A DNA stretch of 64,000 bases, taken from the NCBI GenBank assembly GCA_040754395.1, contig JBFMCL010000015.1, positions 1 to 64,000 of the forward strand. Reading direction: 5' to 3'. The DNA comes from Nitrospirota bacterium (GTDB lineage: Bacteria > Nitrospirota > Thermodesulfovibrionia > Thermodesulfovibrionales > SM23-35). Both the position numbers and the translations under genes were made by a program. The notes beneath the pieces are model-generated. The model had not been told where the DNA came from, did not search any database, and worked only from the letters and a program-made list of their open reading frames with translations. Below are positions 17,618 through 61,899 of this stretch, in pieces (the stretch's first letter is position 1; each line of letters begins with the position of its first letter).

Positions 17618-17688
17618 ACCTGTCTTCCTTGAAAGGTTATTTTTGATCTTGCTATTATAGTGCATATGGTATGCCAATGTGTATTTAC

Positions 17689-17731: not shown

Positions 17732-20179
17732 ATGCATACTGAACAGCCTTCAGTCTCGATTATCGTAAGGATAAAACACAGTCCGAAACTCCTTCAAAGG
17801 GCCTTAAAAAGTATTGCGGCACAGACGTTCAGGAAGATAGAGGTCGTGCTTGTTGATGACGGGTCCTTTATGCTTGCTGAGGATGAGATGCAGGGGATCC
17901 TTGGGCATATTCCGCTCAGCCGTGTCAGATGTGAAAAGGACACCGGGAACACTCATTCGGGGAATACCGGTATCCGGCGTGCCAGAGGGAAATACATCGG
18001 TTTCCTTGATGATAAAGACGCGTTATACCCTGAACATGTTGAAGTGCTGAGAAACCTTCTGGCCGGCAGTGATTACAAGGTAGTCTATGCAAACTGCGAG
18101 GCGGTATCTCTCTCGTGCGTTCCCGGTACAGATGCGTTTGATGAGATATCCGAGGGGAGCCAGGGAATGTGGGGGCCTTCATCCGATGTGAGACTGTTTG
18201 AGGATGCGGTTCCATTGTCATCGATACTCTTTGACAATGATATTCTCAGGAGCAGCGGCGGGTTCGATGCAACGCTCGGAATGTTCGAAGACTGGGACCT
18301 GATTATCCGCATTTTTTCCCTGACGCCTTTCTATCATGTAGCGGCAGTCACTTCCAGATATACGCGGGAGATCAGGGATTGCGGGCTTCCCGCGACAGAT
18401 CCGGACCAGCTCAGGTCCGCGTATATCAGGGTGCTGGAGAAGCATACAGAGAAGATCACGCCGCACACAATATATTCTTATCTGACGTGCAAGGAAGAGT
18501 TCAGGCGTGAACAGGAGAGGCTCATCAGAAGCCTTGAGGACGAGCTGTTACGGCAGAAGAAATATCTCGGCCATGCAGGAAGTGCACCGGCGGATTCCGG
18601 ACCTCCCGGTGATCAGATGTCTGCTGTCGGACACCTCACCGATATCAGGAAGCAGCTGGATGAAAAAAACAGCTATATTGAAGAGATCCACCGGAGCCTC
18701 GGATGGAAGATGCTGATGTTTTACCGGCAGAAAATAAAGACTTTTGTGGCTCCTGAAGGGACAAAGCGGCAGAAATTCTACCGTCTTGCGCTTGCCAGCA
18801 TGCCCCTGCTCAGGGAAAAGGGGGCCCCCTTTGTCTTCAGAAAAGCGAAGAACGTGCTGCGCCGGCTGAGGGCTGAAAAAAATATAGAAAAGGAACAGTA
18901 CCATATCCCCGCGATTCATGATGAAATACCCGGCACGGCAGATGTCAGGGTATCTGTGGTGATTCCGACAAGAAATGCAGGCAGAGACTTCCGTTATACC
19001 CTCGAAAAAATATCGGGGCAGAAAGGCATCAGGGAGATTGAACTGATCATCGTCGACTCAGGCTCTGAGGACGGCACCCTTGCGCTGGCAGAGAGGTATG
19101 GCGCACGTGTCTTTTCGGTGAACCCGTTTGACTTCAATCACGGGGCTACCAGGAATTTCGGAGCTGAAAAAGCGTCGGGGGATTTTCTGGTATTCATGTC
19201 GCAGGATGCGATACCGATTGGTGACCTCTGCCTTTTCAATCTGATCAGCAAAATGCATCAGGACATGGGGATCGCCGCCGCGACCTTAAAACAGGTCCCG
19301 AGAAGCGACGCAGATCTGTTTTCATGCTGGCAGCTCTGGTTTTATAACGACAGGCTGCTCAGATATTCGGAAGACTTTGTTGCGGCCCTGAACACCGCAT
19401 ATCCTGAAGGCGTTTCCCCCGAAGAGAAAAGGAGACTCATGCAGATAGACAATGTCTTTTCCTGTTTCCGGAGAGAGGTGTTCAACAGGTTCAGATTCAG
19501 GGAGATTGCATATGCAGAGGATCTGGACCTCGGCAGGAGACTGATCGAAGGCGGGCATAAAATACTGTTCATGATTTCATCGGGCGTGATCCATTCCCAC
19601 AACAGGCCTGCTGAATATTTTTTCAGGAGAGGATATATTGACACAAGGACACTGCTTCAGCTTCTCCGCCATGAACCGATCAATTGGGAAAATGTCGGGA
19701 TTACCTCGGTCGAGCAGATGCTGGCATATCTCTATTCACTGTACAAGAGGGTGAACTACTCGATGGAGGAATTTGCATTTTCCTCCGGGGACGGATATCC
19801 GCTTGACCAGTTGATATCAGCAATCAAAAGCCAGATTCAGGATACCCGGAATCCCCTCGTTCTTCGCGGAGAACCGGGGATCGACAGGCTTTTCACAAGA
19901 TTCTTCTCGGGGAGTTTCCATCAGAACGGAAAAAGCATGCCGGCAGGGGATGATATCCTTATGCATCAGTATTTCATGTTTCTGGACAGTTTCTCTGAAT
20001 ATCTCACCGGAAGCAATATGCGAGTTGTTCCGGGAAACATGAAAAAGGAACTGATCGAGACATTGTATAAACTCTTTGCCTGGACATCCGGTGCAACTAT
20101 CGGGAATTTCATCGCCTTTTCGGAAAGCAGGGGGGAGTCCTACCGGAACTCCTATGTGGAAACGATACTGGGGAACTGA
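17732..20179 (+). CDS. Two-domain GT2 glycosyltransferase (module 1)
   Basis: An 815-residue cytoplasmic protein with a GT-A (GT2) domain at about 1-210, a charged linker of helices at about 245-380 with a GWKMLMFYR motif, and a second GT2 domain from about 403 (VSVVIPTRNAGRDF). The second domain belongs to the rhamnosyltransferase-like group with QDA in place of DxD (FMSQDAIP). The first domain has LDDKD where its paralogs at 22323 and 29192 have LDDDD, and SPKLL where they have DRPxLL, so its metal site may be altered. Domains like these add sugars to a lipid-linked chain. It heads a plus-strand array; the next gene begins two bases after its stop. Confidence 0.88.
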   Translation: MHTEQPSVSIIVRIKHSPKLLQRALKSIAAQTFRKIEVVLVDDGSFMLAEDEMQGILGHIPLSRVRCEKDTGNTHSGNTGIRRARGKYIGFLDDKDALYPEHVEVLRNLLAGSDYKVVYANCEAVSLSCVPGTDAFDEISEGSQGMWGPSSDVRLFEDAVPLSSILFDNDILRSSGGFDATLGMFEDWDLIIRIFSLTPFYHVAAVTSRYTREIRDCGLPATDPDQLRSAYIRVLEKHTEKITPHTIYSYLTCKEEFRREQERLIRSLEDELLRQKKYLGHAGSAPADSGPPGDQMSAVGHLTDIRKQLDEKNSYIEEIHRSLGWKMLMFYRQKIKTFVAPEGTKRQKFYRLALASMPLLREKGAPFVFRKAKNVLRRLRAEKNIEKEQYHIPAIHDEIPGTADVRVSVVIPTRNAGRDFRYTLEKISGQKGIREIELIIVDSGSEDGTLALAERYGARVFSVNPFDFNHGATRNFGAEKASGDFLVFMSQDAIPIGDLCLFNLISKMHQDMGIAAATLKQVPRSDADLFSCWQLWFYNDRLLRYSEDFVAALNTAYPEGVSPEEKRRLMQIDNVFSCFRREVFNRFRFREIAYAEDLDLGRRLIEGGHKILFMISSGVIHSHNRPAEYFFRRGYIDTRTLLQLLRHEPINWENVGITSVEQMLAYLYSLYKRVNYSMEEFAFSSGDGYPLDQLISAIKSQIQDTRNPLVLRGEPGIDRLFTRFFSGSFHQNGKSMPAGDDILMHQYFMFLDSFSEYLTGSNMRVVPGNMKKELIETLYKLFAWTSGATIGNFIAFSESRGESYRNSYVETILGN

Positions 20180-20181
20180 GC

Positions 20182-21420
20182 ATGAACATACTTTATGTAG
20201 TCAATGATTTCTTCCCGATGTATTACGGAGGCGTTGAAAGATATGTCCTGAATATCAGCAAACAGATGCAGAAATCAGGACATGCCGTAAAAGTCCTCAC
20301 CTACGGGATGGATGACAGAACCCGGGGATACGCCTCGAAAGGGAAGATACTGCATAAACAGTATACATATGAAAATATCCCGGTGATATCAGTCAGACAT
20401 CCGGATATCCCTCCTGATATCGGATTCAGAATCGGTGACGACATGATTGAACATGACCTCTTCGGGATCATTCAGCAGGAAAACGCGGACGTCATTCATG
20501 TTGCCCATCCCATGAAACTGAATCCGGTGGTCAATATCGCTTCAGAGCTGCATATCCCGTCAGTGCTGACGCTGACTGATTTCTGGCTCCTCTGCCCAAG
20601 GGGGAGGTTTTTCAAGCCGGACTATTCCGCCTGCAATTCCCCCATGAACGGCGTGAAATGCATCAGGGAATGCGGGATAGACTCCTCGGTCACCGAGCGG
20701 TACAAAAAGGCCGGGGAGATATTCCGGAAGGCTGCAAAAATAATCGCCCCTTCACGGTTCATTATCAGGGTTTTTGAAAACAACGGCTGGGACAAGGAGA
20801 TCGCCCTGGTCAGGCATGGTTTTGCGCATGGCTGTGCTCGGGAAGCTGCAAAGAAACGCACGCGTGAAAACGGGTCCGTTGTGTTCGGGTATACAGGGCT
20901 GATCACAAAATTCAAGGGGCTTGACCTTCTGGTCGAATCGTTCCGGAACATCAGGAACAGGAACATCTCTTTGTATATCTACGGGGATATTTATCAGGAA
21001 TGGGTGTGGGAACGGACTTTTTACGAGGATCTGGTGCAATCCGCTCAGGGGGACAGCCGGGTAAGGTTTATGGGGAGATATACCCATAACGACCTGCCGG
21101 AAATATTCAGTACGATAGATATCAACGTAATCCCGTCCACCACACTCGAAAGCTACGGGCTTGTCGTTACCGAAAGCATCTCGTACAATGTCCCGGTAAT
21201 CGTCTCTGATATTGTGGGAAGCGCATATGAATATGTGTCAGACGGCCTGAACGGATTCATTTTCCCTGTGAATTCTCCCGGGCAGCTCGGGCAGATCATG
21301 CAGCGCATTGCAGATAATCCGCGGCTGATCGATTCATTGCGGGATAATATTGTGCTTCCGCCCCGGATCGAAGAGGAGGCCTTCATGCTTGAAGGTATTT
21401 ACAAGGAATTGGTCCGTTGA
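20182..21420 (+). CDS. GT4 glycosyltransferase (module 1)
   Basis: A 412-residue GT-B fold retaining glycosyltransferase. The N-terminal part has the glycine-rich FPMYYGGVERYVLNISK loop of GT4 enzymes; the C-terminal part has VFGYTG..KGLDLL, then the EX7E motif (ESYGLVVTE) and NVPVIVSDIVG. The acceptor and donor cannot be told from sequence. It is closely related in layout to the proteins at 24630, 26730 and 31302. Its ribosome site (GGGGA) lies in the 3' end of the previous gene. Confidence 0.9.
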   Translation: MNILYVVNDFFPMYYGGVERYVLNISKQMQKSGHAVKVLTYGMDDRTRGYASKGKILHKQYTYENIPVISVRHPDIPPDIGFRIGDDMIEHDLFGIIQQENADVIHVAHPMKLNPVVNIASELHIPSVLTLTDFWLLCPRGRFFKPDYSACNSPMNGVKCIRECGIDSSVTERYKKAGEIFRKAAKIIAPSRFIIRVFENNGWDKEIALVRHGFAHGCAREAAKKRTRENGSVVFGYTGLITKFKGLDLLVESFRNIRNRNISLYIYGDIYQEWVWERTFYEDLVQSAQGDSRVRFMGRYTHNDLPEIFSTIDINVIPSTTLESYGLVVTESISYNVPVIVSDIVGSAYEYVSDGLNGFIFPVNSPGQLGQIMQRIADNPRLIDSLRDNIVLPPRIEEEAFMLEGIYKELVR

Positions 21421-21436
21421 TTCATTACGCAGGATT

Positions 21437-22291
21437 ATGCCACAGATATCAATTATAATCAGGACAAAGAATGAAGAGGATTCCGTCGGGATGACCCTGC
21501 AGGGCATTTTCCGTCAAAAGGGAGACCTTTCTCCCGAGGTGCTCGTCATAGACTCGGGTTCTACGGACAGGACGCTTGAAATCGCGGGCACCTATCCGGT
21601 AAAGATCATCACCATCCCACCTTCAGATTTCACTTACGGGCATGCGCTCAACCGGGGCATCAGGGAATCTTCAGGGAAGATTGCCTGTCTTCTTTCCGCG
21701 CATTCCGTTCCCGAGGGAACAGAATGGCTTGCTGAACTGGTGAAGCCGATAACAGGTGGAACTGCCCATGCCACGTATGGCAGGCAGATTCCTGTGAAGG
21801 GGGTAAATCCTTTTGAGGAAGTATCCCTCAGCAGGCATTTCCCTGAGACCGAACGTGCTGCGGGCAGGGTGCCGTTCTCGAATGCAAACTGTGCCTTTCT
21901 CCGGCAGATGTGGGAGAAGGTGCAGTTCGATGAGAAACTGACGAGCTGGGAGGATTACCTCTGGTATATTCTCCTGAAAGATTCCTATACGTTCAGGTAC
22001 TGTCCGAGGGCGGCTGTTTCCCATTCGCATCCTTTCTCTGTCAGGGATATTGTGCAAAGAAGGTATAATGACGGCATGGCATTCAGGATGATAAAGGATA
22101 CCTACGGGATAGATGTCGTGGAAGACCTGTATCCGGGCATGACCGCCAAACTCAGGATGTTTCTCTCAGACATGGCAAGTCATGCAGTTTTTTTCAGTAA
22201 GAAGGGGTACAAAAAATATATTCTATTGATACCCGTTGTGAGGATATGCGCATATTTTACTTATTGGAGGGGCTTCAGATCGGCAGGATGA
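21437..22291 (+). CDS. GT2 glycosyltransferase, single domain (module 1)
   Basis: A GT2 protein of 284 residues from the ATG at 21437 (GCAGGA just upstream; the longer reading from 21350 overlaps the previous gene by 71 bases). It opens with ISIIIRTKNEEDSVG and has LVIDSGSTDRT, then LSAHSVPEGTEWL where a DxD motif would be. This Ser-Ala-His-Ser variant is shared with the protein at 25871 and is known in rhamnosyltransferase-like GT2 groups. A late hydrophobic stretch (VFFSKKGYKKYILLIPVVRI) may touch the membrane. Confidence 0.88.
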   Translation: MPQISIIIRTKNEEDSVGMTLQGIFRQKGDLSPEVLVIDSGSTDRTLEIAGTYPVKIITIPPSDFTYGHALNRGIRESSGKIACLLSAHSVPEGTEWLAELVKPITGGTAHATYGRQIPVKGVNPFEEVSLSRHFPETERAAGRVPFSNANCAFLRQMWEKVQFDEKLTSWEDYLWYILLKDSYTFRYCPRAAVSHSHPFSVRDIVQRRYNDGMAFRMIKDTYGIDVVEDLYPGMTAKLRMFLSDMASHAVFFSKKGYKKYILLIPVVRICAYFTYWRGFRSAG

Positions 22292-22322
22292 AAAATCCGG
22301 ACAACTTCAGGATGCAGAGATA

Positions 22323-24629
22323 ATGCAGCAGGAAAACCTTCTGGTTTCCATCATAGTAAGGACAAAGGACCGGCCGGCACTGCTCAGGCGGGCACTGAAG
22401 AGCATCGCTGCGCAGACATACCGTCCGATAGAGGTTGTCCTTGTGAACGACGGCGGATGCGATCTCGATGTCGAAGAACTGGGGCGAATCCTCGGCAATG
22501 CTTCGCTGAACTATATCAGGCTCCGCGAGAACAGGGGAAGGGCGCGTGCAGGGAATACGGGCATCGAAAACGCCCGGGGAGACTATATAGGCTTCCTGGA
22601 CGACGACGACGAATTCTACCCGGAACATATTTCGACACTCATGTCTTTTCTGAAAGACAGCGAGTATCGTATTGCGTATACGGATTCACTCATGGTGTAC
22701 GCAAGATATCACGACTCTACCGGTGAGATGGAGGTGATGCGGAAGGAAGTAATGTTCTCTCACGATTTTGATTTTGACCTCCTTGTCTTTGAAAATTATA
22801 TCCCCCTGCTGTGCCTGCTGTTTGCGCGTGAGACTGTCCTGAGCGTGTCTGGTTTCGATGAATCGTTCGATCTCTATGAGGATTGGGACATGCTTATTCG
22901 GTTGGGGGAGATTCAGCCCTTTCATCATATCAGGAAGACAACAGCAGAATACAGCCAGTGGAGTCTGACGTCCCAGATATCACAGTGGAACATGGATTCG
23001 GATCTCCTGAAACAGGCCTGTCTCAGGGTCCTGAACAAGCATCTTCACAAATTCACTGCATTGAGGATTCATGATCATCTCTCAAGGAGCCTCGTCGTGA
23101 AAAAGCTCGAGCAGAGGATCAACCAGTTACGCGAAACAGAAAAAGAGGGGCAAAGGCTTGAGGAGTTGCTGCAGGCAAAGGAACAGCTTGTCAGCGAGAT
23201 AATGAATACCAGAGGCTGGAGGCTGTTGCAGCACTACAGGCATATCAGGGATGGGTTCCGTGCCCTGTATTCCGGGAAGACGCAGGGAAATCTCCTGCTG
23301 AAAGGGCTGAAAACCCTGAAAACGCAGGGACTGAAAGCACTGGTGTTCAAGATGAACAAGAAACTGCTCTTCTCCCAGTCGATAAAACAGCCGAATCCGG
23401 TCGATTTCTCTTCCCTGCCGGTCCGCAGTGTTTCCGGGTCCGATATCGTACACCCGCTTGAGTCAAGGATATCAGTCATCATTCCTACGAAAAATGCAGG
23501 CAGGGACTTTGAATATATTCTCCAGAAAATATCCCGGCAGGAGGGAATCAGGGAGATAGAACTTCTTATCATTGACTCAGGTTCCGGGGACGGGACTGTA
23601 GACATCGCGAAAAAATATACTGAACACGTCTTTCAGGTCAGCCCTGATGAGTTCCACCATGCGAAGACCCGCAATTTCGGCGCTGAGATGGCAACAGGCG
23701 AATTCCTCGTATTTACCGTGCAGGATGCCATTCCTGCAGGGGCACAGTGGCTGTATAAACTTGTCTCTCCTTTGTCCGCTGGAGAGGCATCTGCGGTTTC
23801 TGCGCGGCAGATTCCACGCTCGGACGCGGACCTCTTTGCAGGCTGGTCATACTGGGACCACGACCTCCGGTATCTTGGAAATGACCGTGAAAGAATCTCT
23901 CAGGTTACACCTGAAGCATTCCTGAAACTCTCTCTTCAGGAGAAAAGATCGCTCGCCTGTCTGGATAATGTATGTTTGGGGATTGCGAAAAAAACATTTG
24001 ATACATATCGGTTCCGTGCCGGGTATGCGGAAGATTTTGAACTCGGCATGCGGATGATCAGCGAAGGGCACCCTCTCATGTTTCAGTCATCGAATGCGGT
24101 CATCCATTCCCACAGCAGGCCGCCTGTCTATTATTTCAGGCGAAGCTGTGCAGATACGCTCATCATGGCGGACATTCTGCAGACAGAGCATGAGGAGATC
24201 GATGAAGAATCAGTTACGGGGGCGATCAGCTATTGCTATGCAATACTGAAAGCGGCTATCGACGAATTACACAGAGACCGGAATCTTCCGACCAATCCCG
24301 AGAAACTGGTTCATGTCCTGCTGAATCTCCTCTATGACAAGATGACCTGGTTCAATCCTTCATGGCAGAACATCTGTGGAGATCAGCTTCTTGATGAATA
24401 TTTCAGAAATATCAGGCCTGGATCAAGGAAAGAGATCGTGTCTGAACTGTATTCAGAAATGGCGGGCAAGCTGTACCGCTTCTCTCAATTCATGAGGGCG
24501 TATGCAGACATTCAGCCTTTCGGGGAAGACTTCACTGCCTGTCTTTACAAGATATTCAGTGTTACAGCCGGAAATTTTCTCGGCAGACATTCTCAGATAC
24601 AGAGCAAATCCCTCTGCGGGGGTATTTAA
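22323..24629 (+). CDS. Two-domain GT2 glycosyltransferase (module 2)
   Basis: A 768-residue protein with the same plan as the one at 17732: first GT2 domain at about 5-215 with an intact LDDDDE metal motif, a helical linker at about 258-320 with a GWRLLQHYR motif, and a second GT2 domain from about 381 (ISVIIPTKNAGRDF) with VQDAIPAG. The first domain is nearly the same as that of the protein at 29192 in its opening 100 residues; the second is close to the second domain at 17732. The gene abuts the next one with no spacer (TAA then ATG). Confidence 0.9.
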   Translation: MQQENLLVSIIVRTKDRPALLRRALKSIAAQTYRPIEVVLVNDGGCDLDVEELGRILGNASLNYIRLRENRGRARAGNTGIENARGDYIGFLDDDDEFYPEHISTLMSFLKDSEYRIAYTDSLMVYARYHDSTGEMEVMRKEVMFSHDFDFDLLVFENYIPLLCLLFARETVLSVSGFDESFDLYEDWDMLIRLGEIQPFHHIRKTTAEYSQWSLTSQISQWNMDSDLLKQACLRVLNKHLHKFTALRIHDHLSRSLVVKKLEQRINQLRETEKEGQRLEELLQAKEQLVSEIMNTRGWRLLQHYRHIRDGFRALYSGKTQGNLLLKGLKTLKTQGLKALVFKMNKKLLFSQSIKQPNPVDFSSLPVRSVSGSDIVHPLESRISVIIPTKNAGRDFEYILQKISRQEGIREIELLIIDSGSGDGTVDIAKKYTEHVFQVSPDEFHHAKTRNFGAEMATGEFLVFTVQDAIPAGAQWLYKLVSPLSAGEASAVSARQIPRSDADLFAGWSYWDHDLRYLGNDRERISQVTPEAFLKLSLQEKRSLACLDNVCLGIAKKTFDTYRFRAGYAEDFELGMRMISEGHPLMFQSSNAVIHSHSRPPVYYFRRSCADTLIMADILQTEHEEIDEESVTGAISYCYAILKAAIDELHRDRNLPTNPEKLVHVLLNLLYDKMTWFNPSWQNICGDQLLDEYFRNIRPGSRKEIVSELYSEMAGKLYRFSQFMRAYADIQPFGEDFTACLYKIFSVTAGNFLGRHSQIQSKSLCGGI

Positions 24630-25874
24630 ATGAGGATACTTCTTGGTGTGCACCAGTTCTTCCCAAAATATTACGCAGGTACGGAACGATATGTGCTGAA
24701 TCTCGCACGGCAGTTCCAGAGGTTTGGCCACCAGGTAAAGGTTCTGACTTATGCGTTCAACGAAGACGGGCACTTCCAGAAAGGCTATTCCCCGAAGATG
24801 TACAGGAAGGAATATTCATACCAGGGAGTACCTGTTGTCGCGTTAAAGCATGCGCATCAGCCGGATGACCACAGTTTTCTTTTCAATTTTTTCGATGACG
24901 AGATATACAGGGAAGTGAAGATGATGCTCGAACGCGATGATCCCTATGATATCTTCCATTGTGCCCATCCGTTCCGTATCGCTTCTTCTGTCCCCGCTGC
25001 CAGGGAGACAGGGTGCAAGGTTGTTGCCATGATTACGGATTATTTCCTGATGTGTCCGCACGGAATCATGCTCCGTCTCGACAACACCCTCTGCACCGGT
25101 CCGGAAGAAGGAAGGAATTGCAGAAAATACTGTTTCAGCAGGGTGACTGCACACACCTGGCAGAAAAGGATGGCCCAGGCCCGTGATGTGGTAAGTCTCT
25201 GTGATTGCATGCTTTCGCCTTCCCGTTTTCTCATCGGGCTTTTTGACTATTCCGGTGTCATCCCTGCCAGCCACTTTGCTCTGTCGCGGCACGGGTTTGA
25301 CTATGCACTGAAGCAAAACTGGGTGTTAAAGGAACCGGGAAAGACGATTACCTTCGGCTACATCGGTACGATACAGTATCATAAAGGGGTACATATCATG
25401 CTTGAAGGTTTCAGCAAGTGCAGTGCACCACAGATCAGGCTGCAGGTCTGGGGCGGTTGTTACGGAGATGAAGGCTACCAGAAACGAATCACGAAAATGG
25501 CGAAAAAGGACCCGCGCATCGAAATCAAGGGCCCTTACGACTATGAACGGATCGGAGAAACGCTCAGGGAAATCGACGCTGTTGTTGTTCCCTCCATATG
25601 GTATGAGAACGCGCCGCTTACCATTCTCTCAGGGCTTGCCTTCGGTATCCCGGTAATCACCTCTGACATCGGGGGAATGCGCGAGATGGTTGAGGATGGC
25701 AAGAACGGATTTATCTTTAGGGTTGGCAGCCCTGACAGCCTCGCAGAAAAAATGAAGCTGATTGCGGAAGAGCCCGGGGTCCTCTCCTCAATACGAAAAA
25801 CCGCCGGTTTCCCGATCCGGATTGAAGAAGAAGCGCTGAATGCTGAGATGGTGTTCAGGGGGCTGCTGCAGTGA
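24630..25874 (+). CDS. GT4 glycosyltransferase (module 2) with altered EX7E
   Basis: A 414-residue GT-B protein, paralog of the one at 20182: FPKYYAGTERYVLNLARQ near residue 10, ITFGYIGTIQYHKG near residue 235, and GIPVITSDIGG. The usual EX7E motif reads ENAPLTILS, so the second glutamate is replaced by serine, while the other GT4 proteins of the array keep it. That Glu contacts the donor sugar in GT4 enzymes, so activity or donor choice may differ. It overlaps the next gene by four bases. Confidence 0.88.
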   Translation: MRILLGVHQFFPKYYAGTERYVLNLARQFQRFGHQVKVLTYAFNEDGHFQKGYSPKMYRKEYSYQGVPVVALKHAHQPDDHSFLFNFFDDEIYREVKMMLERDDPYDIFHCAHPFRIASSVPAARETGCKVVAMITDYFLMCPHGIMLRLDNTLCTGPEEGRNCRKYCFSRVTAHTWQKRMAQARDVVSLCDCMLSPSRFLIGLFDYSGVIPASHFALSRHGFDYALKQNWVLKEPGKTITFGYIGTIQYHKGVHIMLEGFSKCSAPQIRLQVWGGCYGDEGYQKRITKMAKKDPRIEIKGPYDYERIGETLREIDAVVVPSIWYENAPLTILSGLAFGIPVITSDIGGMREMVEDGKNGFIFRVGSPDSLAEKMKLIAEEPGVLSSIRKTAGFPIRIEEEALNAEMVFRGLLQ

Positions 25875-26737
25875 CAGATATCCGTAATCCCTCACTGTCG
25901 GTCGTGATCCGTACAAAAAATGAAGAGAAACATATCGGCGAAGTTCTCGCACGTTTGGGCGAGCAGGTCTATGAAGGCCGTACAGAAGTAGTACTCGTGG
26001 ATTCTGGTTCCTCTGACGAAACCGTGACTGTTGCAGACCGTTTTGGCTGCCGAATCATACATATGAAACCCCGGGAGTTTTCTTTCGGCCGTGCATTGAA
26101 CAGGGGGATCATGCAGGCAGCGGGAGAAATTATTATCTTCCTCAGCGGCCATTCTGTTCCTGCAGGAAAAGACTACTTCAGTAAGATGGTAAAACCTTTT
26201 GCGGATCCTGAGATGGCAGCGACATTCGGCAGGGATATCCCCTGGCCCGATGCCTGTCCTTCGCAGGCGAGGGACATTCTCAACCACTTTCCAGACTCTG
26301 ACCTTGAGGGAAGCAAATTCTCGAATGCGAATGCAGCGGTGAGAAGGAAAATATGGGAGCAGGTACCCTTCGACGAACAGCTGACTGCGTGTGAAGATCT
26401 GCTCTGGGCACAAAAAGTGATGGGTCTCGGGTACAGGATTACATATGTTCCCGGGGCAAGTGTCTATCATTCACATACTGCATCACCTTACTATATCTTC
26501 AGGCGATATCTCAGGGAAAGGAGTTCGGTCAGGAAGATACTCGATCTTCCGGGCCTTGCGATCAAAGACATTCTGAAGAACAGCTTCTGGCATATCAAAT
26601 GCGATTTCCGGTTCGTAAGGGAAAGATCTTATGGGTTCCGCTGGTATTTCCACATACCGCTCTACAGGCTGTCCCAGGAGATCGGGCTCTATATAGGAAG
26701 CAGACGCGCAGAGCAGGGGAGGGGGTCGGTTGGATAG
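25871..26737 (+). CDS. GT2 glycosyltransferase, single domain (module 2)
   Basis: A 288-residue GT2 protein starting at a GTG that overlaps the stop of the gene before; AGGGGG lies about nine bases upstream. Key stretches are LSVVIRTKNEEKHIG, LVDSGSSDETV and FLSGHSVPAGKDY, the same DxD-less variant as at 21437, its nearest paralog in the window. The late acidic ACEDLLW is the usual GT2 catalytic-base region. It overlaps the next start by eight bases. Confidence 0.88.
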   Translation: MTDIRNPSLSVVIRTKNEEKHIGEVLARLGEQVYEGRTEVVLVDSGSSDETVTVADRFGCRIIHMKPREFSFGRALNRGIMQAAGEIIIFLSGHSVPAGKDYFSKMVKPFADPEMAATFGRDIPWPDACPSQARDILNHFPDSDLEGSKFSNANAAVRRKIWEQVPFDEQLTACEDLLWAQKVMGLGYRITYVPGASVYHSHTASPYYIFRRYLRERSSVRKILDLPGLAIKDILKNSFWHIKCDFRFVRERSYGFRWYFHIPLYRLSQEIGLYIGSRRAEQGRGSVG

Positions 26738-28154
26738 CACGCGCAAGAAAATCCTGATGGTCATTCATTGTTTCCTTCCCGAATGTGTGGGAGGTACGGA
26801 GTTTTACACCTATAATCTGTCCAGGGAACTGAAAGCGCGGGGATTTGACGTATGCATCCTTACTGCGTTTGACGACGGCAAAGCCGGGAGGTACGAGCTG
26901 CAAAAAACAGAATTTGAGGAATTAAAGGTCATTAGGGTGATGAATTCCCCTTACCTTGCAAAGACTTTTCTCGATTATTTCATAGATCCTAACATCGATA
27001 GTATTTTCAGGAGGATACTGAGTGAGGAAAAGCCCGATATTATCCATTTCCAGCATATTCCCTATCTCTCCGGCAATCTGCCCGAAATAGCTCATCAGAT
27101 GGGTGTCCCCGGCGTGTTTACCCTGCACGATTACTGGTACATGTGTTACAGAAGCCAGCTGATACGTCCGGGCCTCGGTACGTGTCCTGGTCCGTCGGGA
27201 GGACTGTTTTGCGCCTCTTGCCTCGATGCCGCGCCGAACGGCGCCGCCCCGGACTTCCGGTTACCGCTTCTGCAGAGGGTCCTTGAATGGCCAATGGTGA
27301 GGAAACTGAACCTGAAGGATAAAATCCCTCCTGACATGAAGGCAAAACTGAAAAAACTCCTGCTGCGGCAGACCCCTTCTGTTACGCACGAAACAATCCA
27401 GAATCCTTACATTGTGACTATCCTTGAAAACAAATACCGCCTCGATTTCTTTAAGAGGCAGCTTGTATTCCCGGATTTTGTGTTAAGCCCTTCTGTCCAC
27501 CTGAAAAGAAGGTATGAGAGCGAGGGGTTCAGGGAGATTGTGCATCTGCCACTCGGGTTCTACCGCGTGAAAAAGGTGGAGATTCTCCCTTTCGCCGGAA
27601 AGCTCAGAATTGCCTATCTCGGGAATCTCATGCCGTTCAAGGGGCCGGACGTGATACTCCGGGAACTTTCGGGACTCGAAGGGGAAAAACAGAAAATGCT
27701 CGAACTCAATTTCCACGGCAGAATGAACGATAAGGAGTATTTCAAAAGCATAGAGGAACTGGCAGACAGATTTCCGCAGGGTGTCGTAACCTTCCATGGG
27801 GGATACAGAAGTGATACGGATCTGCATGGAATTTTTTCACACAATCACCTTGTCATTTTTCCCTCTCTCTGGGAGGAAAACTACCCGCTGGTGGTGAGAG
27901 AGGCGTTGCTGCACGGGGTTCCTGTCATTGGTTCGAAGCTCGGAGGGGTGCCCGAGGCGATCGAAGAGGGCATCAACGGGTTTGTCTTTGATCCCTATAA
28001 GGAAGGAGATCTCCGAGAAAAAATCTCCGTTATCCTCGGAAATCCCGGCATGATTGAAACACTCACCAGAGGGGCGAGAGATACAAGGATCGAGAGCATG
28101 GAAGATCATGTGGAGAAGATGCTCGGGATTTATGTAAAGCTTATATCATCGTAA
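26730..28154 (+). CDS. GT4 glycosyltransferase, longer form
   Basis: A 474-residue GT-B protein. The N-terminal loop is FLPECVGGTEFYTYNLSRE; the C-terminal half has LRIAYLGNLMPFKGPD, the EX7E motif ENYPLVVRE, and GVPVIGSKLGG. About 60 extra residues sit between the two folds compared with its neighbours. The start is a TTG at 26730 backed by GGAGG eight bases upstream; the next in-frame Met is nine codons later. It ends the uninterrupted run of co-oriented, overlapping genes that began at 17732. Confidence 0.88.
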   Translation: MDSTRKKILMVIHCFLPECVGGTEFYTYNLSRELKARGFDVCILTAFDDGKAGRYELQKTEFEELKVIRVMNSPYLAKTFLDYFIDPNIDSIFRRILSEEKPDIIHFQHIPYLSGNLPEIAHQMGVPGVFTLHDYWYMCYRSQLIRPGLGTCPGPSGGLFCASCLDAAPNGAAPDFRLPLLQRVLEWPMVRKLNLKDKIPPDMKAKLKKLLLRQTPSVTHETIQNPYIVTILENKYRLDFFKRQLVFPDFVLSPSVHLKRRYESEGFREIVHLPLGFYRVKKVEILPFAGKLRIAYLGNLMPFKGPDVILRELSGLEGEKQKMLELNFHGRMNDKEYFKSIEELADRFPQGVVTFHGGYRSDTDLHGIFSHNHLVIFPSLWEENYPLVVREALLHGVPVIGSKLGGVPEAIEEGINGFVFDPYKEGDLREKISVILGNPGMIETLTRGARDTRIESMEDHVEKMLGIYVKLISS

Positions 28155-28195
28155 ATAGGGAGTCTTTCTCTTTTATTGCGTAGGGGAGTTTCTTG

Positions 28196-28960
28196 ATGGC
28201 GAATGAGGAATCAGTCGTGAAGAGAGTAATGAAGTATTTCAGGAAGACTGTGCCCGGGTCTACTTTAGAAGATATTGGCGAAGAAATAACAGACGAGCAA
28301 AGGGCCATATGGGAAAGAAGCCAGGAATTCGAATTCAACTTTTGGGTAAACCAGTGGACAACCACACATGCTCAGCGAGACGGACAACAGTTAAGTATTG
28401 AAGAAATTATATCCGCACGGCAGAAAGCGGGAATTTGGTTGCTGCAGAACTTTCATATCCCAATTTCAGATGACTTGACCAGCGAGATATTCGCCGGGAC
28501 TGTCCTTGAAGTTGGTTGTGGACCGATCGGATTCTTTGAACAGTTCCCCGCGGTCAAGGTGCTTGGAATAGATCCTTTAATGGGACAGTTCGCTGCGCAC
28601 CTTTACTATTCTGTACTCGGAGCCCGGAATAACTATCTGTATGATGAAACTCATATAAAGGAGCTGAGAGATAATGAATTTGATTGGATTGTATGTTCAA
28701 ATGTGCTAGATCATACCGAGAACTATAAGTTTATGTTACGAGAGATGATAAGAGTCGCAGATAAGAGAGGAGTGATTCTTCTTGTAACGGATTGCCGAAA
28801 CAAAGGTGAGCTTGGTCATGCACAAGCTTTTAGTGCTGGCCAGATACTTGATTATGTAGTAAGGCATGGATTTTTTGTTGAATTCTGCAAAATTGTTTAT
28901 CCATTGCATGCCGGGGAAGATGCTGTTAGTCTGTTTGCAAAAATTAGACAAAGAAATTAA
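28196..28960 (+). CDS. Class I SAM-dependent methyltransferase (AT-rich, likely acquired)
   Basis: A 254-residue protein with the SAM-binding motif VLEVGCGPIGFFE near residue 102, a following acidic loop VLGIDP, and motif WIVCSNVLDH, as in the Methyltransf_11/25 groups. Acceptor unknown; the setting suggests a sugar or a glycan end. Codons are AT-rich (about 37% GC in the block 28681-28740), unlike the genes on either side, and it is followed by 231 AT-rich bases without a gene. ATG at 28196 has GGGGAG seven bases upstream. Confidence 0.85.
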   Translation: MANEESVVKRVMKYFRKTVPGSTLEDIGEEITDEQRAIWERSQEFEFNFWVNQWTTTHAQRDGQQLSIEEIISARQKAGIWLLQNFHIPISDDLTSEIFAGTVLEVGCGPIGFFEQFPAVKVLGIDPLMGQFAAHLYYSVLGARNNYLYDETHIKELRDNEFDWIVCSNVLDHTENYKFMLREMIRVADKRGVILLVTDCRNKGELGHAQAFSAGQILDYVVRHGFFVEFCKIVYPLHAGEDAVSLFAKIRQRN

Positions 28961-29191
28961 TCGGGAACTTTTGACATAAAAAAATATATTATGTTAAGGA
29001 AAGTTCTTTATACATTGTTTCCTGACAAAATCTTAAGAATCCTTATGACGCATGAAATAGACAATTCTTGTCTTGTAAAGTAACGATTGCATATCGCTTC
29101 TCTCCTCACAAGGCATTACTTAAGAAAGCGATTAATTCAGGCATTTAATGAATAGACGGTGGAAGTACTAAAGAATTAAGATAAAGAAATT

Positions 29192-31336
29192 ATGCAAAAA
29201 GACAATCCCCTTGTTTCCATCATAGTCAGAACCAAAGACAGGCCGGTGCTTCTGAAACGCGCGATATCAAGCATCGCGCATCAGACATACAGGCCGGTTG
29301 AGGTAGTGCTGGTCAACGACGGCGGATGCGATCTCGATATAACTGAGCTGAAGTACCTCCTTGGCGATATCGCACTGAACTATGTGAGGCTGGAAGAAAA
29401 TACCGGCAGGTCTCATGCTGCCAATGTGGGCATAGAGAACGCACATGGTGCACATATCGGATTCCTCGATGATGACGACGAGCTTTATCCGGAGCATATC
29501 AGGGTGCTGATCGACACGCTTGCAGATGACGAACTGAAGATCGCCTATACCGACGCCGAGATGGTCTTCACCTCGCTTGAAGACGACAGGATAGTCGAAG
29601 TATTCAAGTATGTCTACTATTCGCACGACTTCTCGCCCTCTGCGCTGCTCCTGCAAAATTATATCCCATTAATGTGCCTTCTCTTCCCGAGGGAAGTGTT
29701 TAGTGAGATAAGGTTTGATGAGACGTTTGACATCTTTGAAGACTGGGTCTTCCTGGCAGATCTTTCGCGAAAATACTGGTTCAGGCATATCCCAAAGGCG
29801 ACTGCAAAATATATCCAGTGGAGCGACGATTCACAGATCAACAGAAGGGCACTGTCGGAGGATTTCAGCCGGGATGCGTATATCAGGGTTCTTGACCGGA
29901 ACTTTCAGCAGATTTCCTCTGAAGCAATCTATACCTACTGCGTGCATAATGCAACAGAGCGACAGAAATGCCTTGATGCGCTTATCCGGAAGGAAGCAGA
30001 CTATTTCAGGGCAAAGATGGAACTTACCGATGAACTCATGAAGCTGAAGTCCGAAAAAATAAAGCTTGAACTCCGGATACAGAATCTTGTGCGTGATATA
30101 AAGCAGGCAGAGGCAGAGAAAACACATGCCCTGAAGGAACTGGCCGGGGCCAGGGACCGTCTCGGGGAAATATCCGGGAGCCTTAGCTGGAAGATGATCG
30201 AGCGTTATAGACGCCTCAAGGAAAGGATTGCTCCCTTCGGCACCATGAGAAGAGGAGCCTACGACCTGCTGCTCAAGAGCGTGAAGGTGCTCAGGACTGA
30301 AGGCATCCCCGGCTTTTTGATGCGCGCGGGAAGAAAAAACCGCAAAATGCTGAACAAGGCCAGATTCCGCCTCGGAATCAAGAGAAGACGACCGCTTCAT
30401 GCTTCAGCAGACCCGGGTGCATATGAGATGTGTGATTTCGGGCAGAAGCCTGTGCAGATAATCATGCCGGTGTATAACGGCTATGACTGCCTTGTGGACT
30501 GCATCGACAGTGTGGTAAGAAATACGGATCTTAACCTGCACAGTCTGGTGCTTATTGATGACAGGAGCCCTGATGAACGGGTGCGGGAGTATCTCCGGCA
30601 GATTCGCCGCGAAAGGAACGGCAGAAATATCCATGTCATGCATAACCGGAAAAATCTGGGGTTTACGAGAACTGTGAACAGGGGGATGGAACTGACGTAT
30701 GAAGACGTGATTCTCCTGAATTCCGATACGATTGTGACAAAAAACTGGGTTGAGAAGCTGCAGCGGGCTGCGTATTCAACGCCTCGCATCGCTACCGCAA
30801 CGCCTCTTTCGAACTATGTGACGATCAACGGCATCCCTGAGCCTTTCAGATACAATGTAATCCCACAGGGAATGAATATTGATGACTTTGCCGCCTTTCT
30901 GGAATCGGTTTCTCTCCGCTATTATCCTGAAATCCCTGCCGGGGTGGGTTTCTGCATGTACATCAAGCGCTCGGTGCTCGATGTGATGGGATATTTCGAT
31001 GAGAAGAAGTTCGGAAGAGGCTATGCAGAGGAAACGGATTTCTGCATGAGGGCGATGAAAAAAGGCTATGCCCATGTTATTGACGATGCCACGTATATTT
31101 ATCACATCGGCGGCGTGTCCTTCGAATCAGTGAAAGACCCGGAGATTCTCAGACAGAAGAACATGATGATAGAAAAGAACCTGGAAACCCTCAGAGAACT
31201 CCATCCGGAATATTCAGGCCTTGTTGCACGCGCGCTGAATGAAAGTCTTCTGCCGATGCATGCATATATCAGATTAAGAATGAAATTAACGGAGGAGATG
31301 AGTGAAGCTGCTCTACGTGATAGATCAGAAGCCTGA
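29192..31336 (+). CDS. Two-domain GT2 glycosyltransferase (module 3, exchanged second domain)
   Basis: A 714-residue protein. The first GT2 domain (about 1-215) is a close paralog of that at 22323, with LVNDGGCDLDI and LDDDDELYPEH. A coiled-coil rich in Glu, Lys and Leu spans about 265-330, then the SWKMIERYR motif. The second domain, from about 418, is of another GT2 kind: QIIMPVYNGYDCLVDCI, NLGFTRTVNRG, ILLNSDTIV. So the array has kept the first domain and changed the second. No clear ribosome site precedes the ATG. Confidence 0.88.
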   Translation: MQKDNPLVSIIVRTKDRPVLLKRAISSIAHQTYRPVEVVLVNDGGCDLDITELKYLLGDIALNYVRLEENTGRSHAANVGIENAHGAHIGFLDDDDELYPEHIRVLIDTLADDELKIAYTDAEMVFTSLEDDRIVEVFKYVYYSHDFSPSALLLQNYIPLMCLLFPREVFSEIRFDETFDIFEDWVFLADLSRKYWFRHIPKATAKYIQWSDDSQINRRALSEDFSRDAYIRVLDRNFQQISSEAIYTYCVHNATERQKCLDALIRKEADYFRAKMELTDELMKLKSEKIKLELRIQNLVRDIKQAEAEKTHALKELAGARDRLGEISGSLSWKMIERYRRLKERIAPFGTMRRGAYDLLLKSVKVLRTEGIPGFLMRAGRKNRKMLNKARFRLGIKRRRPLHASADPGAYEMCDFGQKPVQIIMPVYNGYDCLVDCIDSVVRNTDLNLHSLVLIDDRSPDERVREYLRQIRRERNGRNIHVMHNRKNLGFTRTVNRGMELTYEDVILLNSDTIVTKNWVEKLQRAAYSTPRIATATPLSNYVTINGIPEPFRYNVIPQGMNIDDFAAFLESVSLRYYPEIPAGVGFCMYIKRSVLDVMGYFDEKKFGRGYAEETDFCMRAMKKGYAHVIDDATYIYHIGGVSFESVKDPEILRQKNMMIEKNLETLRELHPEYSGLVARALNESLLPMHAYIRLRMKLTEEMSEAALRDRSEA

Positions 31337-32522
31337 CGGATATCCGGGAGGGATTGAATATCACCAGCTCGATCTGATCGGATATTGCGCCGGCAGGGGT
31401 ATCCCGGTCTCTCTGCTGTTCCCTGAGCAGAAATCCTTATGCCTCAGGAGTTACAGGGATGGCGGGGTTGAGGAAACACGGTATAAGGGCGGAAAGCGCG
31501 ATGATCACAGGCTCAGGGACCGGGAAACAGAAGAAATATTCAGAAAAATATTACATGAGACAGATACGGATATCGTCCACTTCCAGAGCATCCGGACACT
31601 GCCGCTGTCTCTTATCGAGGCCGCAAAACACGCCGGGAAAAAAGTCCTTGTCAGCATCCACGAATATTATTTCTGGTGTATCAACTGCATCATGCTTGCA
31701 CCCGATTTCTGCTGGTTTGAAAAGGACACGAAAAAATGTGCCGAATGCCTTGCGAGAGAAGGTCCCACGGTTACGGAAGGCTATATTGAGGAAAGACGAC
31801 AGTATATTAACGCCCTTTTCGGGATGATCGACAGGGTTATCACTCCGTCTTTTTATGTCCGGGATGTCTTTCTCTGGCTGTACGGGGGGCTGACGGAAGA
31901 CAAATGTTCGGTCATACAGTTCGGCGTTGACAGGGGAATCCTGCAGGACGGCAGAGAAAAACCGGCAAGGCCGGCAAACGGCATCCTGAATCTCGCTTTT
32001 CTGGGGAATTTTCTGCACTACAAGGGAAATAAGGCTTTTCTCGCACTCGCAAATCATTACCAACATTCTGATTCGCTGCGGTTCAGCATCATCGGCAATA
32101 TTTTTGATTTCGGTTTGATCCCTTCCCATGCCAACCTTTCGGTTGCCGGGGGGTATACCAGAAACAATGTGGTCAGGAAAATACAGAAGGTCGATCCGGA
32201 CGTGATCCTTCTTTTTTCGAACTGGCCGGAGACGTTCTCATATACTCTCTCGGAAGCGATAGCGGCGGGAGTCCCTGTGATTGCCACGGACGGTGGAGCG
32301 CTCAGGGAAAGGGTATCACGGGAATCAGTCGGTTTTCTTGTGCCGGTCGAAAATCCTGTCCCGAGGACTGTCGAAATCATCGAGGATCTGAGGCTGAATC
32401 CCGGTGTGATCGACTTTTTTAAAGAAAAGGTGAACACCGCAAGGACGAGACTGAAGACAGTGGAGGACATGGCTGAAGAGATGTTCAGGATATACCAGTC
32501 ACTGCTTCAGCGGACACTGTAA
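31302..32522 (+). CDS. GT4 glycosyltransferase (module 3)
   Basis: A 406-residue GT-B protein starting at GTG 31302 with GGAGG seven bases upstream, overlapping the previous gene by 35 bases. It has the N-terminal DGYPGGIEYHQLDLIG loop, LAFLGNFLHYKGNKAF, the EX7E motif ETFSYTLSE, and GVPVIATDGG. A cysteine cluster (WCIN-C, CAEC) near residue 125 is shared in part with the GT4 paralogs (CRKYC at 24630, CASC at 26730), and may bind a metal or be structural. Confidence 0.88.
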   Translation: MKLLYVIDQKPDGYPGGIEYHQLDLIGYCAGRGIPVSLLFPEQKSLCLRSYRDGGVEETRYKGGKRDDHRLRDRETEEIFRKILHETDTDIVHFQSIRTLPLSLIEAAKHAGKKVLVSIHEYYFWCINCIMLAPDFCWFEKDTKKCAECLAREGPTVTEGYIEERRQYINALFGMIDRVITPSFYVRDVFLWLYGGLTEDKCSVIQFGVDRGILQDGREKPARPANGILNLAFLGNFLHYKGNKAFLALANHYQHSDSLRFSIIGNIFDFGLIPSHANLSVAGGYTRNNVVRKIQKVDPDVILLFSNWPETFSYTLSEAIAAGVPVIATDGGALRERVSRESVGFLVPVENPVPRTVEIIEDLRLNPGVIDFFKEKVNTARTRLKTVEDMAEEMFRIYQSLLQRTL

Positions 32523-32543
32523 AAAATCTGACGGAGATTCTGT

Positions 32544-33395
32544 ATGGACCACGATCCGAAAGGTGAGTTTTCTTTTCCGCCGGGGCATTACTATTCGCCT
32601 GTCCCCTCGCTGGAAGAAATACGGATGCGGGAAAAAGAGATATTTTCCCCGCTGCCGGCCGAGATTCCCGGCATTGACCTGAATGTCGAAGATCAGCTCC
32701 GGCTGCTTGCCGGGTTCAGGACCTATTGCAGGGAGTTCCCGTTCGGGTTTCAGAAGAAGGAAGACCTGCGGTTTTATCTCGAAAATCCGAGCTATGGCTA
32801 TTCCGATGCGGTAATCCTGTATTGCATGATCCGTCACTTGAAGCCAAAGAGGATAATCGAAATCGGCTCAGGTTTTTCGTCATGCATCATGCTGGATACC
32901 AATGAGATCTTCATGGGGAATGAGGTCTCCTTTACCTTCATTGAGCCATATCCCCAGTTGCTGATGTCGCTCGTGAGGGAAAGGGACAGGATGAGGTTTC
33001 AGGTAATTCCAAGAAGACTCCAGGAGATCGATACAGAGATATTTGCGGAGTTGTCCGCTTCAGATATCCTTTTCATAGACTCCACGCATGTCTGCAAAAT
33101 AGACAGCGATGTCAACCATATCTTTTTCAGGGTTTTGCCGCATCTCAAATCCGGGGTATACGTTCATTTCCATGACATCTTTTACCCTTTTGAATATCCC
33201 AAAGACTGGGTCTATCAGGGGCTGGCATGGAACGAGGCCTATGTATTGCGGTCATTCCTCCAGTACAATCAGATTTTCAGGATAAAGTTTTTCAACACAT
33301 ATATGGCGATTTTTTATAATAAGGAATTTGTTGATGCCATGCCGATTCCGCTGAATCATATCGGAGGGAGTATCTGGCTTGAGAAGGTGAGATGA
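32544..33395 (+). CDS. SAM-dependent methyltransferase-like protein (Methyltransf_24 type)
   Basis: A 283-residue protein with SAM-binding motif IIEIGSGFSSCI near residue 110, ILFIDSTHV near residue 178 and VHFHDIFYPFE near residue 210. This Asp-His arrangement is common in the small-molecule and sugar O-methyltransferases found in polysaccharide clusters. Acceptor unknown. It follows the GT4 gene by 21 bases and is read with it. Confidence 0.8.
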   Translation: MDHDPKGEFSFPPGHYYSPVPSLEEIRMREKEIFSPLPAEIPGIDLNVEDQLRLLAGFRTYCREFPFGFQKKEDLRFYLENPSYGYSDAVILYCMIRHLKPKRIIEIGSGFSSCIMLDTNEIFMGNEVSFTFIEPYPQLLMSLVRERDRMRFQVIPRRLQEIDTEIFAELSASDILFIDSTHVCKIDSDVNHIFFRVLPHLKSGVYVHFHDIFYPFEYPKDWVYQGLAWNEAYVLRSFLQYNQIFRIKFFNTYMAIFYNKEFVDAMPIPLNHIGGSIWLEKVR

Positions 33396-33418
33396 AATGA
33401 AAAATTGGATGCCCGGGT

Positions 33419-34510
33419 ATGATGGGTAAGGCAGGGTCCGCGCTTTACCATGCGCTGCGCAGGTTCGCAGGCCGTCAGGATCAGAAGAAAAACAGCCATG
33501 AAAAGGATAATGCTCCGCGTCCGCATTCTTCCCTGGAGGGAAATGCATCCCGTGAGCCGCAGAAGACAGGATGCGCATTTCATGACGCGGCAAAAAGGTG
33601 GCTGACCGGCAGGCGCGGAAATTTCAGCAATCCGTTTTTTATCCTCCTCAGCTACCTTGTCTCAATGGAAGAACGCTTGCGGGATATTGCCCCTGTCTCA
33701 TGTGACGAGTATGAAAACTATTTCAAAAAACGGTGCACAGTCAGGGAGTTCCCTTTCGAGATTCCCTTTGGCCCGGTCGAACAAACCGGAGACATCATGC
33801 AGTTCATCAGCAGATTCGATCACGCATATCTTTCCAGAATGGTGCAGTCGGTTTTCATAGGGCTTATTGCCTTCCTGGTTCGCAGCAGGGGACGAATCGA
33901 CCTCCTCGACTTCGGTGCGGGCCAGACCTGCGGCATGTACGGCGAGAGCGGGAGATTTCTGTTTACGGAGGGGAAGGTAAATACCGATGCCGTCTCTTTC
34001 TGGGCTATCGACGACCTTCATGAGCCAAAGGGGTCTGTCTTCAGGAAATCACGGTACAGGCAGTGCAACATCCTCTCGTTCGATCCGAGGGAAAAATTTG
34101 ATCTTATCACAGGACATCACGTCCTCGAGCACTGTCATGACTGGAGTGCCGTTGTCGGGCATGTGGCAGGACTTCTGAAGAAAGACGGATATCTGTACCT
34201 TTCATTCCCGCGTTTCGGCGGGTTCTATGATACCGTCTACCGGCTGATGTCGCCACTTGACCACTGCGCCGATTTCGATCTGCACGCATTGGAAGCTGTT
34301 GCCGGACGCGCCGGACTCGAACCCTGCCTTTCCGATGTCTATGTGGACCCCAACGGCAAGTTCGACTGGATCTGCAGCTTCTATCCGGAACTGGTGGACA
34401 AGCAGATCGCCGACTGTTTCTATGACCTGTGCGTGGGTATTGATGCGAAGCTGCTTCTCGGATATCATCATTACGGACATTATGTGGTTTTCAGGAAGGT
34501 TTCCGGTTGA
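33419..34510 (+). CDS. Class I SAM-dependent methyltransferase
   Basis: A 363-residue protein, with a variable basic N-terminus of ~60 residues, the SAM-binding motif LLDFGAGQTCGMY near residue 162, DLITGHHVLEHCHDW near residue 225, and YLYLSFPRFGG, as in Methyltransf_23-like proteins. It closes the array of modules. The ATG pair at 33419/33422 makes the exact start uncertain, and no good ribosome site is seen. Confidence 0.78.
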   Translation: MMGKAGSALYHALRRFAGRQDQKKNSHEKDNAPRPHSSLEGNASREPQKTGCAFHDAAKRWLTGRRGNFSNPFFILLSYLVSMEERLRDIAPVSCDEYENYFKKRCTVREFPFEIPFGPVEQTGDIMQFISRFDHAYLSRMVQSVFIGLIAFLVRSRGRIDLLDFGAGQTCGMYGESGRFLFTEGKVNTDAVSFWAIDDLHEPKGSVFRKSRYRQCNILSFDPREKFDLITGHHVLEHCHDWSAVVGHVAGLLKKDGYLYLSFPRFGGFYDTVYRLMSPLDHCADFDLHALEAVAGRAGLEPCLSDVYVDPNGKFDWICSFYPELVDKQIADCFYDLCVGIDAKLLLGYHHYGHYVVFRKVSG

Positions 34511-34566: not shown

Positions 34567-34595
34567 TTGACAATACCTCATAAATGCTTTAATGT
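34567..34595 (+). promoter_or_regulatory. Candidate promoter for gspD
   Basis: TTGACA at 34567 is followed after 17 bases by TAATGT, which matches only part of the -10 consensus. The predicted leader is about 30 bases and contains the strong AAGGAGG at 34619-34625. Confidence 0.4.
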
Positions 34596-34630
34596 TACTT
34601 AGATTACTGCAGGTCCGGAAGGAGGCGTGT

Positions 34631-46048: not shown

Positions 46049-46416
46049 CGTGTACCTCCTTTGAGTGAATGATAAATATCCGTGACCGGAATTTCTCTTA
46101 TTAGTATAGCAATAAGCATTCCACTTCTTCTGAATATTTTTGCACACAGTGTGACAGAAAAAGCACCTCCGGCATCACCCGCTGTAATGACATTGTGCAG
46201 TTTTTTTGTTGACAGTGGATGCGTTTGTTAATACAATTTTTATAGAAGTACGGCATTGCAATAAATTCCGGTTATCATGGCAGAGATCTTATGCAGAGGT
46301 TTTCTCATCTTAAATGTGCAGGGAGGTGATAAGAACATCGTAATCTTCTGAAGTTCAGACAGGGCGGGGGTCTTTTCCACACACTATACCAACCAACAAT
46401 AACAAGGAGGGGAATA
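46049..46416. other. Divergent control region between protease and secreted-protein genes
   Basis: About 370 bases with no gene. Toward the protease it holds a TATACT (minus strand, 46103-46108) without a good -35 and the AAAGGAGG ribosome site. Toward the secreted protein it holds a consensus promoter (46209), a nine-codon open frame at 46314 that includes GGAGGTGATA, and the final AAGGAGG ribosome site. Confidence 0.6.
46209..46237 (+). promoter_or_regulatory. Promoter of the 276-residue secreted protein
   Basis: TTGACA (46209-46214), 17 bases, TACAAT (46232-46237), the same hexamers and spacing as P2 at 38150. The leader is about 173 bases. Confidence 0.75.
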
Positions 46417-61814: not shown

Positions 61815-61899
61815 GCATTTCCCCTGAAATTTTCAGATTGTACAACAAAGTCGGGTTTTCTGTTCATGCCCTTTTCTGGCCTGGAGGAGCGAAAAGCGC

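Follow-up and report, generated by a model that had tools for sequence, protein, structure and literature searches.

A run of twelve genes from a Nitrospirota bacterium is, with a probability of about two in three, the glycosyltransferase (GT) part of an ATP-binding cassette (ABC) transporter-dependent heteropolysaccharide pathway. The genes occupy positions 17732-34510 of the window, the 64,000-nucleotide stretch that was analysed, which is part of contig C15 (JBFMCL010000015.1) of a 3.0-Mb genome. All lie on the forward strand in the order A1-B1-S1-A2-B2-S2-B3-M1-A3-B4-M2-M3, bounded on the left by gatA and on the right by the secretin gene gspD. By Pfam, nine encode GTs, with twelve GT domains, and three encode methyltransferases, which supports the proposal of a first-pass annotation, made from the sequence alone, that this is a multi-enzyme polysaccharide locus. 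The locus is a well-formed variant of the ABC-dependent polysaccharide loci and not the product of recent tandem growth; the array is most likely a mosaic of old GT2-GT4 couples that have been retained and exchanged at a variable site. The named relatives of this genome are Nitrospirae/Thermodesulfovibrionales genomes; handles such as G007 below denote other genomes of the comparison.

Composition and age of the array

The genes lie where the first-pass annotation had placed them, with gaps or overlaps of 0-37 nucleotides and a single larger gap of 231 nucleotides 5' of A3. Three encode large proteins with a pair of GT2 domains, and a GT4 gene comes immediately after each of the three. A1 (17732-20179; 815 residues) has an N-terminal GT2 (1-270), a helical linker, and a C-terminal GT2 of the QDA type (401-815); A2 (22323-24629; 768 residues) has the same domains by Pfam with a short linker; and A3 (29192-31336; 714 residues) joins an A-family N-terminal GT2 through a coiled-coil-like linker of about 75 residues to a C-terminal GT2 of another subfamily with an NSD motif. 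Their respective GT4 partners are B1 (20182-21420; Glycos_transf_1, 2.6e-24), in which the E-x7-E motif is intact, B2 (24630-25874), and the remote GT4 B4 (31302-32522). In B2, Ser replaces the second Glu of the motif, and five aligned orthologs have Ser or Thr there. The single-domain GT2 S1 (21437-22291; Pfam GT2, 1.5e-17) and the GT2 S2 (25871-26737) have SAH and SGH, respectively, in place of the usual DXD, and these are conserved in orthologs. An overlap of B1 and S1 described earlier is an artefact of an upstream TTG start: the start listed for S1 (21350) is too far 5', the likely one being 21437. Open reading frames were called in the analysis with an amino-acid-composition scorer.

The first-pass annotation had described clear but diverged paralogs forming three copies of a GT2-GT2, GT4, and tailoring unit. 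The paralogy is far above chance for the N-terminal domains (A1N and A2N are 39% identical, E 3e-62, and A2N and A3N 55%, E 2e-93), for the C-terminal domains of A1 and A2 (47%, E 5e-78), for B1 and B2 (34% over the full length, E 1e-78), and for S1 and S2 (39%, E 4e-53). It does not extend to A3C or B4: a BLAST comparison of A3C with A1C and A2C gives no match, A3C is assigned to a different GT2 subfamily, and B4 is just 23-24% identical to B2 and B3. The domain order is therefore not identical in every copy, as A3C and B4 come from other subfamilies, and A3-B4 is a couple of foreign type behind a shared N-terminal GT2, so that the third module is chimeric. The fourth GT4 is B3 (26730-28154). 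In at least five relatives (L118, L129, L139, L142, L145), S2 and B3 are the N-terminal and C-terminal halves of a single fused GT2-GT4 protein of about 730-785 residues, and the window S2 and B3 group with the halves of the fused proteins in the S and B trees. Since S2-B3 is thus the split form of one protein, B3 misfits a reading in three modules, and the fusions and trees together point to a smaller unit, a GT2 followed by a GT4, present four times (A1-B1, A2-B2, S2-B3, and A3-B4) with the lone GT2 S1 as an extra. The threefold unit as described does not recur. In G013, a protein of 3880 residues (L147:1606-13248) contains about eight stretches that resemble GT2, among them an A-family N-domain.

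The couples are old. In a tree of 73 N-domains, of the quick kind and with moderate support for the A1 group (88, 85), A1, A2, and A3 each belong to a clade of their own, and all three clades contain orthologs from further genera and families. The A1 clade includes orthologs in G007, G017, G013, and G171; the A2 clade (15 rows, support 98) includes G009, G023, G031, and the A2 ortholog of G007; and the A3 clade has 5 rows with support of 100. The C-domain and GT4 trees are concordant, with A1C and A2C, and B1 and B2, in separate clades that each contain orthologs from other families, and the B1 clade tracks the A1 orthologs. In these trees the A1 and A2 clades, and likewise the B1 and B2 clades, are related to each other. 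Distance matrices of A C-terminal domains and B proteins are correlated (Mantel r = 0.74, p = 2e-4), driven mostly by the clade split, and the test within clades is weak (p = 0.06 and 0.32). These relations and the co-divergence suggest that A1-B1 and A2-B2 most likely descend from one ancestral pair through a duplication that took place long ago. The window paralogs are 37% (A C-terminal domains) and 34% (B) identical, while the corresponding values for orthologs from different genera and families are 44-50% and 49-63%, with one weaker A C-terminal pair at 31% (G064). Overall, modules 1 and 2 of the window are 34-38% alike, and each resembles its orthologs more closely, mostly at 40-63%. The copies are not closer to each other than to outside orthologs, and this greater distance between the paralogs argues against recent tandem growth. 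Grouping with unrelated outside families, the outcome named in advance as fatal to the module reading, is found for A3C and B4, but not for A1, A2, B1, or B2. An A N-domain is present at E <= 1e-50 in 47 of 176 genomes, patchily over several families.

The variable site and its link to secretion and export genes

The left border of the site is the divergent core gene gatA (16154-17677, reverse strand; Pfam Amidase, 5.8e-163) and the right border is gspD (34592-36760, forward strand; Pfam Secretin, 2.2e-52), which encodes the secretin of a type II secretion system (T2SS). gatA flanks an A-type gene or gspD in G007, G009, G011, G018, G017, G008, G013, G014, G019, and G001. At the same site, G007 has the order A2-B2-[methyltransferase]-[GT2]-A1-B1-S1-A3-B4-M2-M3-gspD, sharing with the window all three A genes, B1, B2, B4, S1, M2, and M3, so much of the array predates the split of these two genera. 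Both A2-B2 and A3-B4 are kept in G009 and G023, and the A3-B4 pair is beside or near gspD in these two genomes and in G007. A1-B1-S1 adjoins gatA in G017. The site is empty in G001, where gatA and gspD are immediate neighbours, and rearranged in G014 and G019, where gspD follows gatA and an A-type GT lies farther on. Of the 41 genomes holding both an A-type GT and gspD, 18 have the two no more than 25 kb apart, and the same holds for gspD and wzm in 17 of 45, compared with an expectation of about 2% per pair; these counts are lower bounds because of contig breaks, and the positions were transcribed by hand from search tables, with a few for wzm taken from annotated loci.

The first-pass annotation had connected the array to a Wzm/Wzt exporter. 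Such an exporter is linked to it in the genome, but not within the array interval: the exporter ATPase gene wzt (59138-60280; ABC_tran, 2.2e-21) and the ABC-2 permease gene wzm (60299-61066; ABC2_membrane, 1.7e-15) are on the reverse strand in a T2SS operon. The best named PDB sequence matches of wzt are O-antigen and teichoic-acid exporters. The run continues with gspC, gspM, and gspL (61119-63985, reverse strand) and, past the end of the window, with gspK-J-I-H-F-E, an initiating sugar-phosphate transferase of the WbaP type (C15:69455-70969, next to gspE; domains Bac_transf and CoA_binding_3), and another GT2. T2SS genes are thus interleaved with wzm and wzt. This block recurs, in varying completeness, in other genomes, in several of which wzm and wzt likewise continue the gspC-M-L run, and the linkage is conserved across the order. 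An A-type GT lies directly 3' of wzm-wzt in G014, G004, and G175, and directly after a WbaP-type initiating transferase in about 15 loci of f13, another family of the order. No Wzx or Wzy was found in the locus; the only Wzx match (PF01943) and the four Wzy_C matches (PF04932) of the genome are on other contigs.

Proposed pathway and alternatives

The computation establishes which genes are present, their clades, couples, and fusions, the variability of the site, and its linkage with gspD and Wzm/Wzt; the pathway, including its sugars and the order of its reactions, is inferred. Chain synthesis would begin on undecaprenyl phosphate with the WbaP-type enzyme, and the A, B, and S enzymes would add the sugars, acting as GT2-GT4 couples that the A proteins would dock to the membrane through their helical linkers and GWK..YR motif. 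M1-M3 may then decorate the chain, and the linked Wzm/Wzt would export the finished lipid-linked product, whose role at the surface could be O-antigen-like, perhaps as the anchor of a surface protein secreted by the T2SS. Several points weigh against this pathway. Twelve GT domains are many for an ABC-exported chain; in 2015, three different sugars per repeat were reported as a first for ABC-exported O antigens (PMC4483657). The exporter genes are 25 kb from the array on the opposite strand with unrelated genes between, and no chain terminator was identified. A second GT cluster with its own Wzm/Wzt is on contig C12 and a Wzx elsewhere in the genome, so the array could feed another exporter.

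The glycan may accordingly belong to a different route, either Wzx-type flipping or glycosylation of a surface protein secreted by the T2SS, while this Wzm/Wzt serves another polymer. We consider this unlikely, although it would fit the position of the array, which adjoins gspD and not wzm in both the window genome and G007, the suitability of twelve GT domains for a complex oligosaccharide, and the presence in the genome of Wzx, four Wzy_C proteins, and a second ABC cluster. All of the latter are off this contig, and the A-type GTs directly after wzm-wzt in three relatives favour the ABC-dependent pathway.

Two further alternatives concern the origin of the array. Growth in this lineage by tandem duplication of a GT2-GT2, GT4, and tailoring module, with each copy adding one repeat segment, as the first-pass annotation had supposed, would account for the same order of the A1/A2, B1/B2, and S1/S2 paralog pairs and for the co-divergence of the A C-terminal domains with the GT4s. 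It is very improbable: the closer relatives of each copy lie in other genera and families, neither A3C nor B4 is akin to the other modules, S2 pairs with B3, the module order differs in G007, and gatA adjoins gspD in G001. This contradicts a recent duplication but leaves the ancient A-B duplication standing. It is possible, if doubtful, that the couples arrived separately by horizontal transfer into a gatA-gspD hot spot, with no shared module history in the lineage. The empty or rearranged sites in G001, G014, and G019 and the patchy spread of orthologs over several families are consistent with such transfers, but much of the set is common to G007 at the same site and is therefore older than the genus split. 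This account addresses the origin of the array and not its function.

Chain end, linkers, and comparison with known systems

Wzt has a 142-residue C-terminal extension with no Pfam or PDB match; a profile match (hhalign probability 56, E 1e-4) connects it with relatives whose own matches to Wzt_C fall slightly short of the cut-off. Wzt C-termini form two groups. Those of the window type, with 42-77% identity, occur in G007, G001, G013, G170, and G118; the others, with 18-25% identity to the window, occur in eight genomes, a ninth (G111) being left out because its sequence is truncated. An ortholog (about 50% identity or more) of GT2_57, the Pfam GT2 immediately 3' of wzt (57980-59131, reverse strand), is directly after wzt in all five genomes with the window type and in none of the eight with the other, which makes it a better candidate than M1-M3 for the step read by the Wzt C-terminus. 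As proof of a capping step this link was downgraded. The ATPase parts, which stay 56-60% alike, split into the same two groups, so that plain operon inheritance explains the association as well.

The methyltransferases are M1 (28193-28960; class I S-adenosylmethionine methyltransferase, Methyltransf_11, 7.2e-08), M2 (32544-33395; Methyltransf_24 type, with no PDB match), and M3 (33419-34510; Methyltransf_23 type). Their earlier assignment as chain-end tailors for Wzt is not borne out by the distribution of M2 and M3, which does not follow the Wzt C-terminal type. Among 22 genomes searched, M3 is in the window genome and G007 only, and the distribution of M2 is scattered; G001, G170, and G118 have the window-type C-terminus, yet neither M2 nor M3 at the cut-offs used. 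The methyltransferases could still be cap makers, since the cap read by the Wzt domain of Aquifex aeolicus is a methylated sugar (PMC9445017).

The GWK..YR motif of the A linkers is SLGWKMLMFYR at residues 322-332 of A1, NTRGWRLLQHYR at residue 295 of A2, and SLSWKMIERYR at residue 330 of A3. The spacer from the N-domain to the motif is 50-82 residues in the window proteins and about 280-320 residues in the A2 orthologs of G009 and G023 and the A1 ortholog of G013. The evidence for coils is a permutation test of heptad periodicity, which is significant for A3 (p = 0.0035) and A1, not for A2, and gives p = 0.0005 for the long-linker orthologs. A home-made coil detector was discarded as too loose, because 81% of control proteins longer than 500 residues scored. 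In-frame tandem repeats of 42 bp (14 residues) are found in the linkers of the A1 ortholog of G013 (L076:1854-2172; 7.6 copies, 98% matches) and the A2 ortholog of G009 (L072:3476-3630; 3.7 copies, 92% matches). The predicted structure of A1 (mean predicted local distance difference test score 62.8, predicted template modelling score 0.44) has a confident N-terminal GT-A fold, helices at 244-382, and a second GT domain of low confidence; as the model is good for the N-terminal domain alone, Pfam is the basis for a C-terminal GT fold. In the A proteins the N-terminal GT2 has a DDxD motif and is a possible chain terminator. A speculative extension, which we regard as quite improbable, is that the A proteins are a new class that combines polymerase and ruler, in which the C-terminal GT2 near the membrane would begin chain growth with its GT4 partner and the N-terminal GT2 at the far end of the coil would stop or switch it. 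The coil would then evolve in length by gain and loss of 14-residue (two-heptad) repeats, and with several rulers in one locus the glycan would be made of blocks, each segment having a set length.

In known ABC-dependent systems, coiled coils act as chain-length rulers with a terminator at the far end (PMC11231755). The loci of Klebsiella pneumoniae O7 and O12 and Escherichia coli O9a, with the proteins ORF6-O7, WbbB, and WbdD (PMC11231755), resemble the window in Wzm/Wzt export, in multi-domain GT proteins, in a coiled coil, probable in the window, that separates an N-terminal catalytic domain from GT modules close to the membrane, and, for some loci, in methyltransferases. The A proteins differ in that their N-terminal domain is a GT2 and not a known terminator (methyltransferase-kinase or 3-deoxy-D-manno-octulosonic acid transferase), and the locus differs in having three such proteins and WbaP-type initiation. 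Compared with those rulers, the coils are short in the window and reach about 300 residues in orthologs. The wbsalmo/A-layer locus of Aeromonas salmonicida, in which wzm and wzt of an ABC-2 O-antigen cluster enclose T2SS genes together with the S-layer gene, and lipopolysaccharide tethers the secreted S-layer (PMC4483657), is similar in its interleaved T2SS genes. The window, in contrast, is from Nitrospirota, has far more GT domains, and has only a candidate S-layer gene (38389-39696). The E. coli K4 chondroitin polymerase KfoC (2z86/2z87), like the A proteins, has two GT2 domains per chain; it is the top PDB match to the A1 model, at about 14% identity over the match, and among the top sequence matches to A2N. 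KfoC is not known to have a GT4 partner or a long coiled-coil linker. In Geobacter xap, polysaccharide exporter genes lie near pilus genes, a possible further parallel.

A literature search for Nitrospirota surface glycans gave nothing specific, and they seem little studied. The locus provides a second instance, distant from the first, in which T2SS genes are linked to an exporter of the O-antigen type, and illustrates a possible course of evolution for complex ABC-exported glycans, with GT2-GT4 couples kept or swapped at a fixed site beside secretion genes. The natural length variants of its GT2-coil-GT2 proteins are material for the question of coil length and chain length outside Proteobacteria.

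The protein encoded at 38389-39696 is acidic and secreted, with 3 Lys in 435 residues, a net charge of -30, seven Cys, and no Pfam match. It is 88% identical in G007, compared with 75% for gatA, and homologs are near gspD or PIG-L in G170 and G118. It is a candidate T2SS substrate or S-layer-like surface protein; seven Cys are not typical of S-layer proteins. Also near the T2SS genes, a subtilase-like protein with repeated PKD-like segments is encoded at 43433-46147, and a homolog lies beside the same block in G007.

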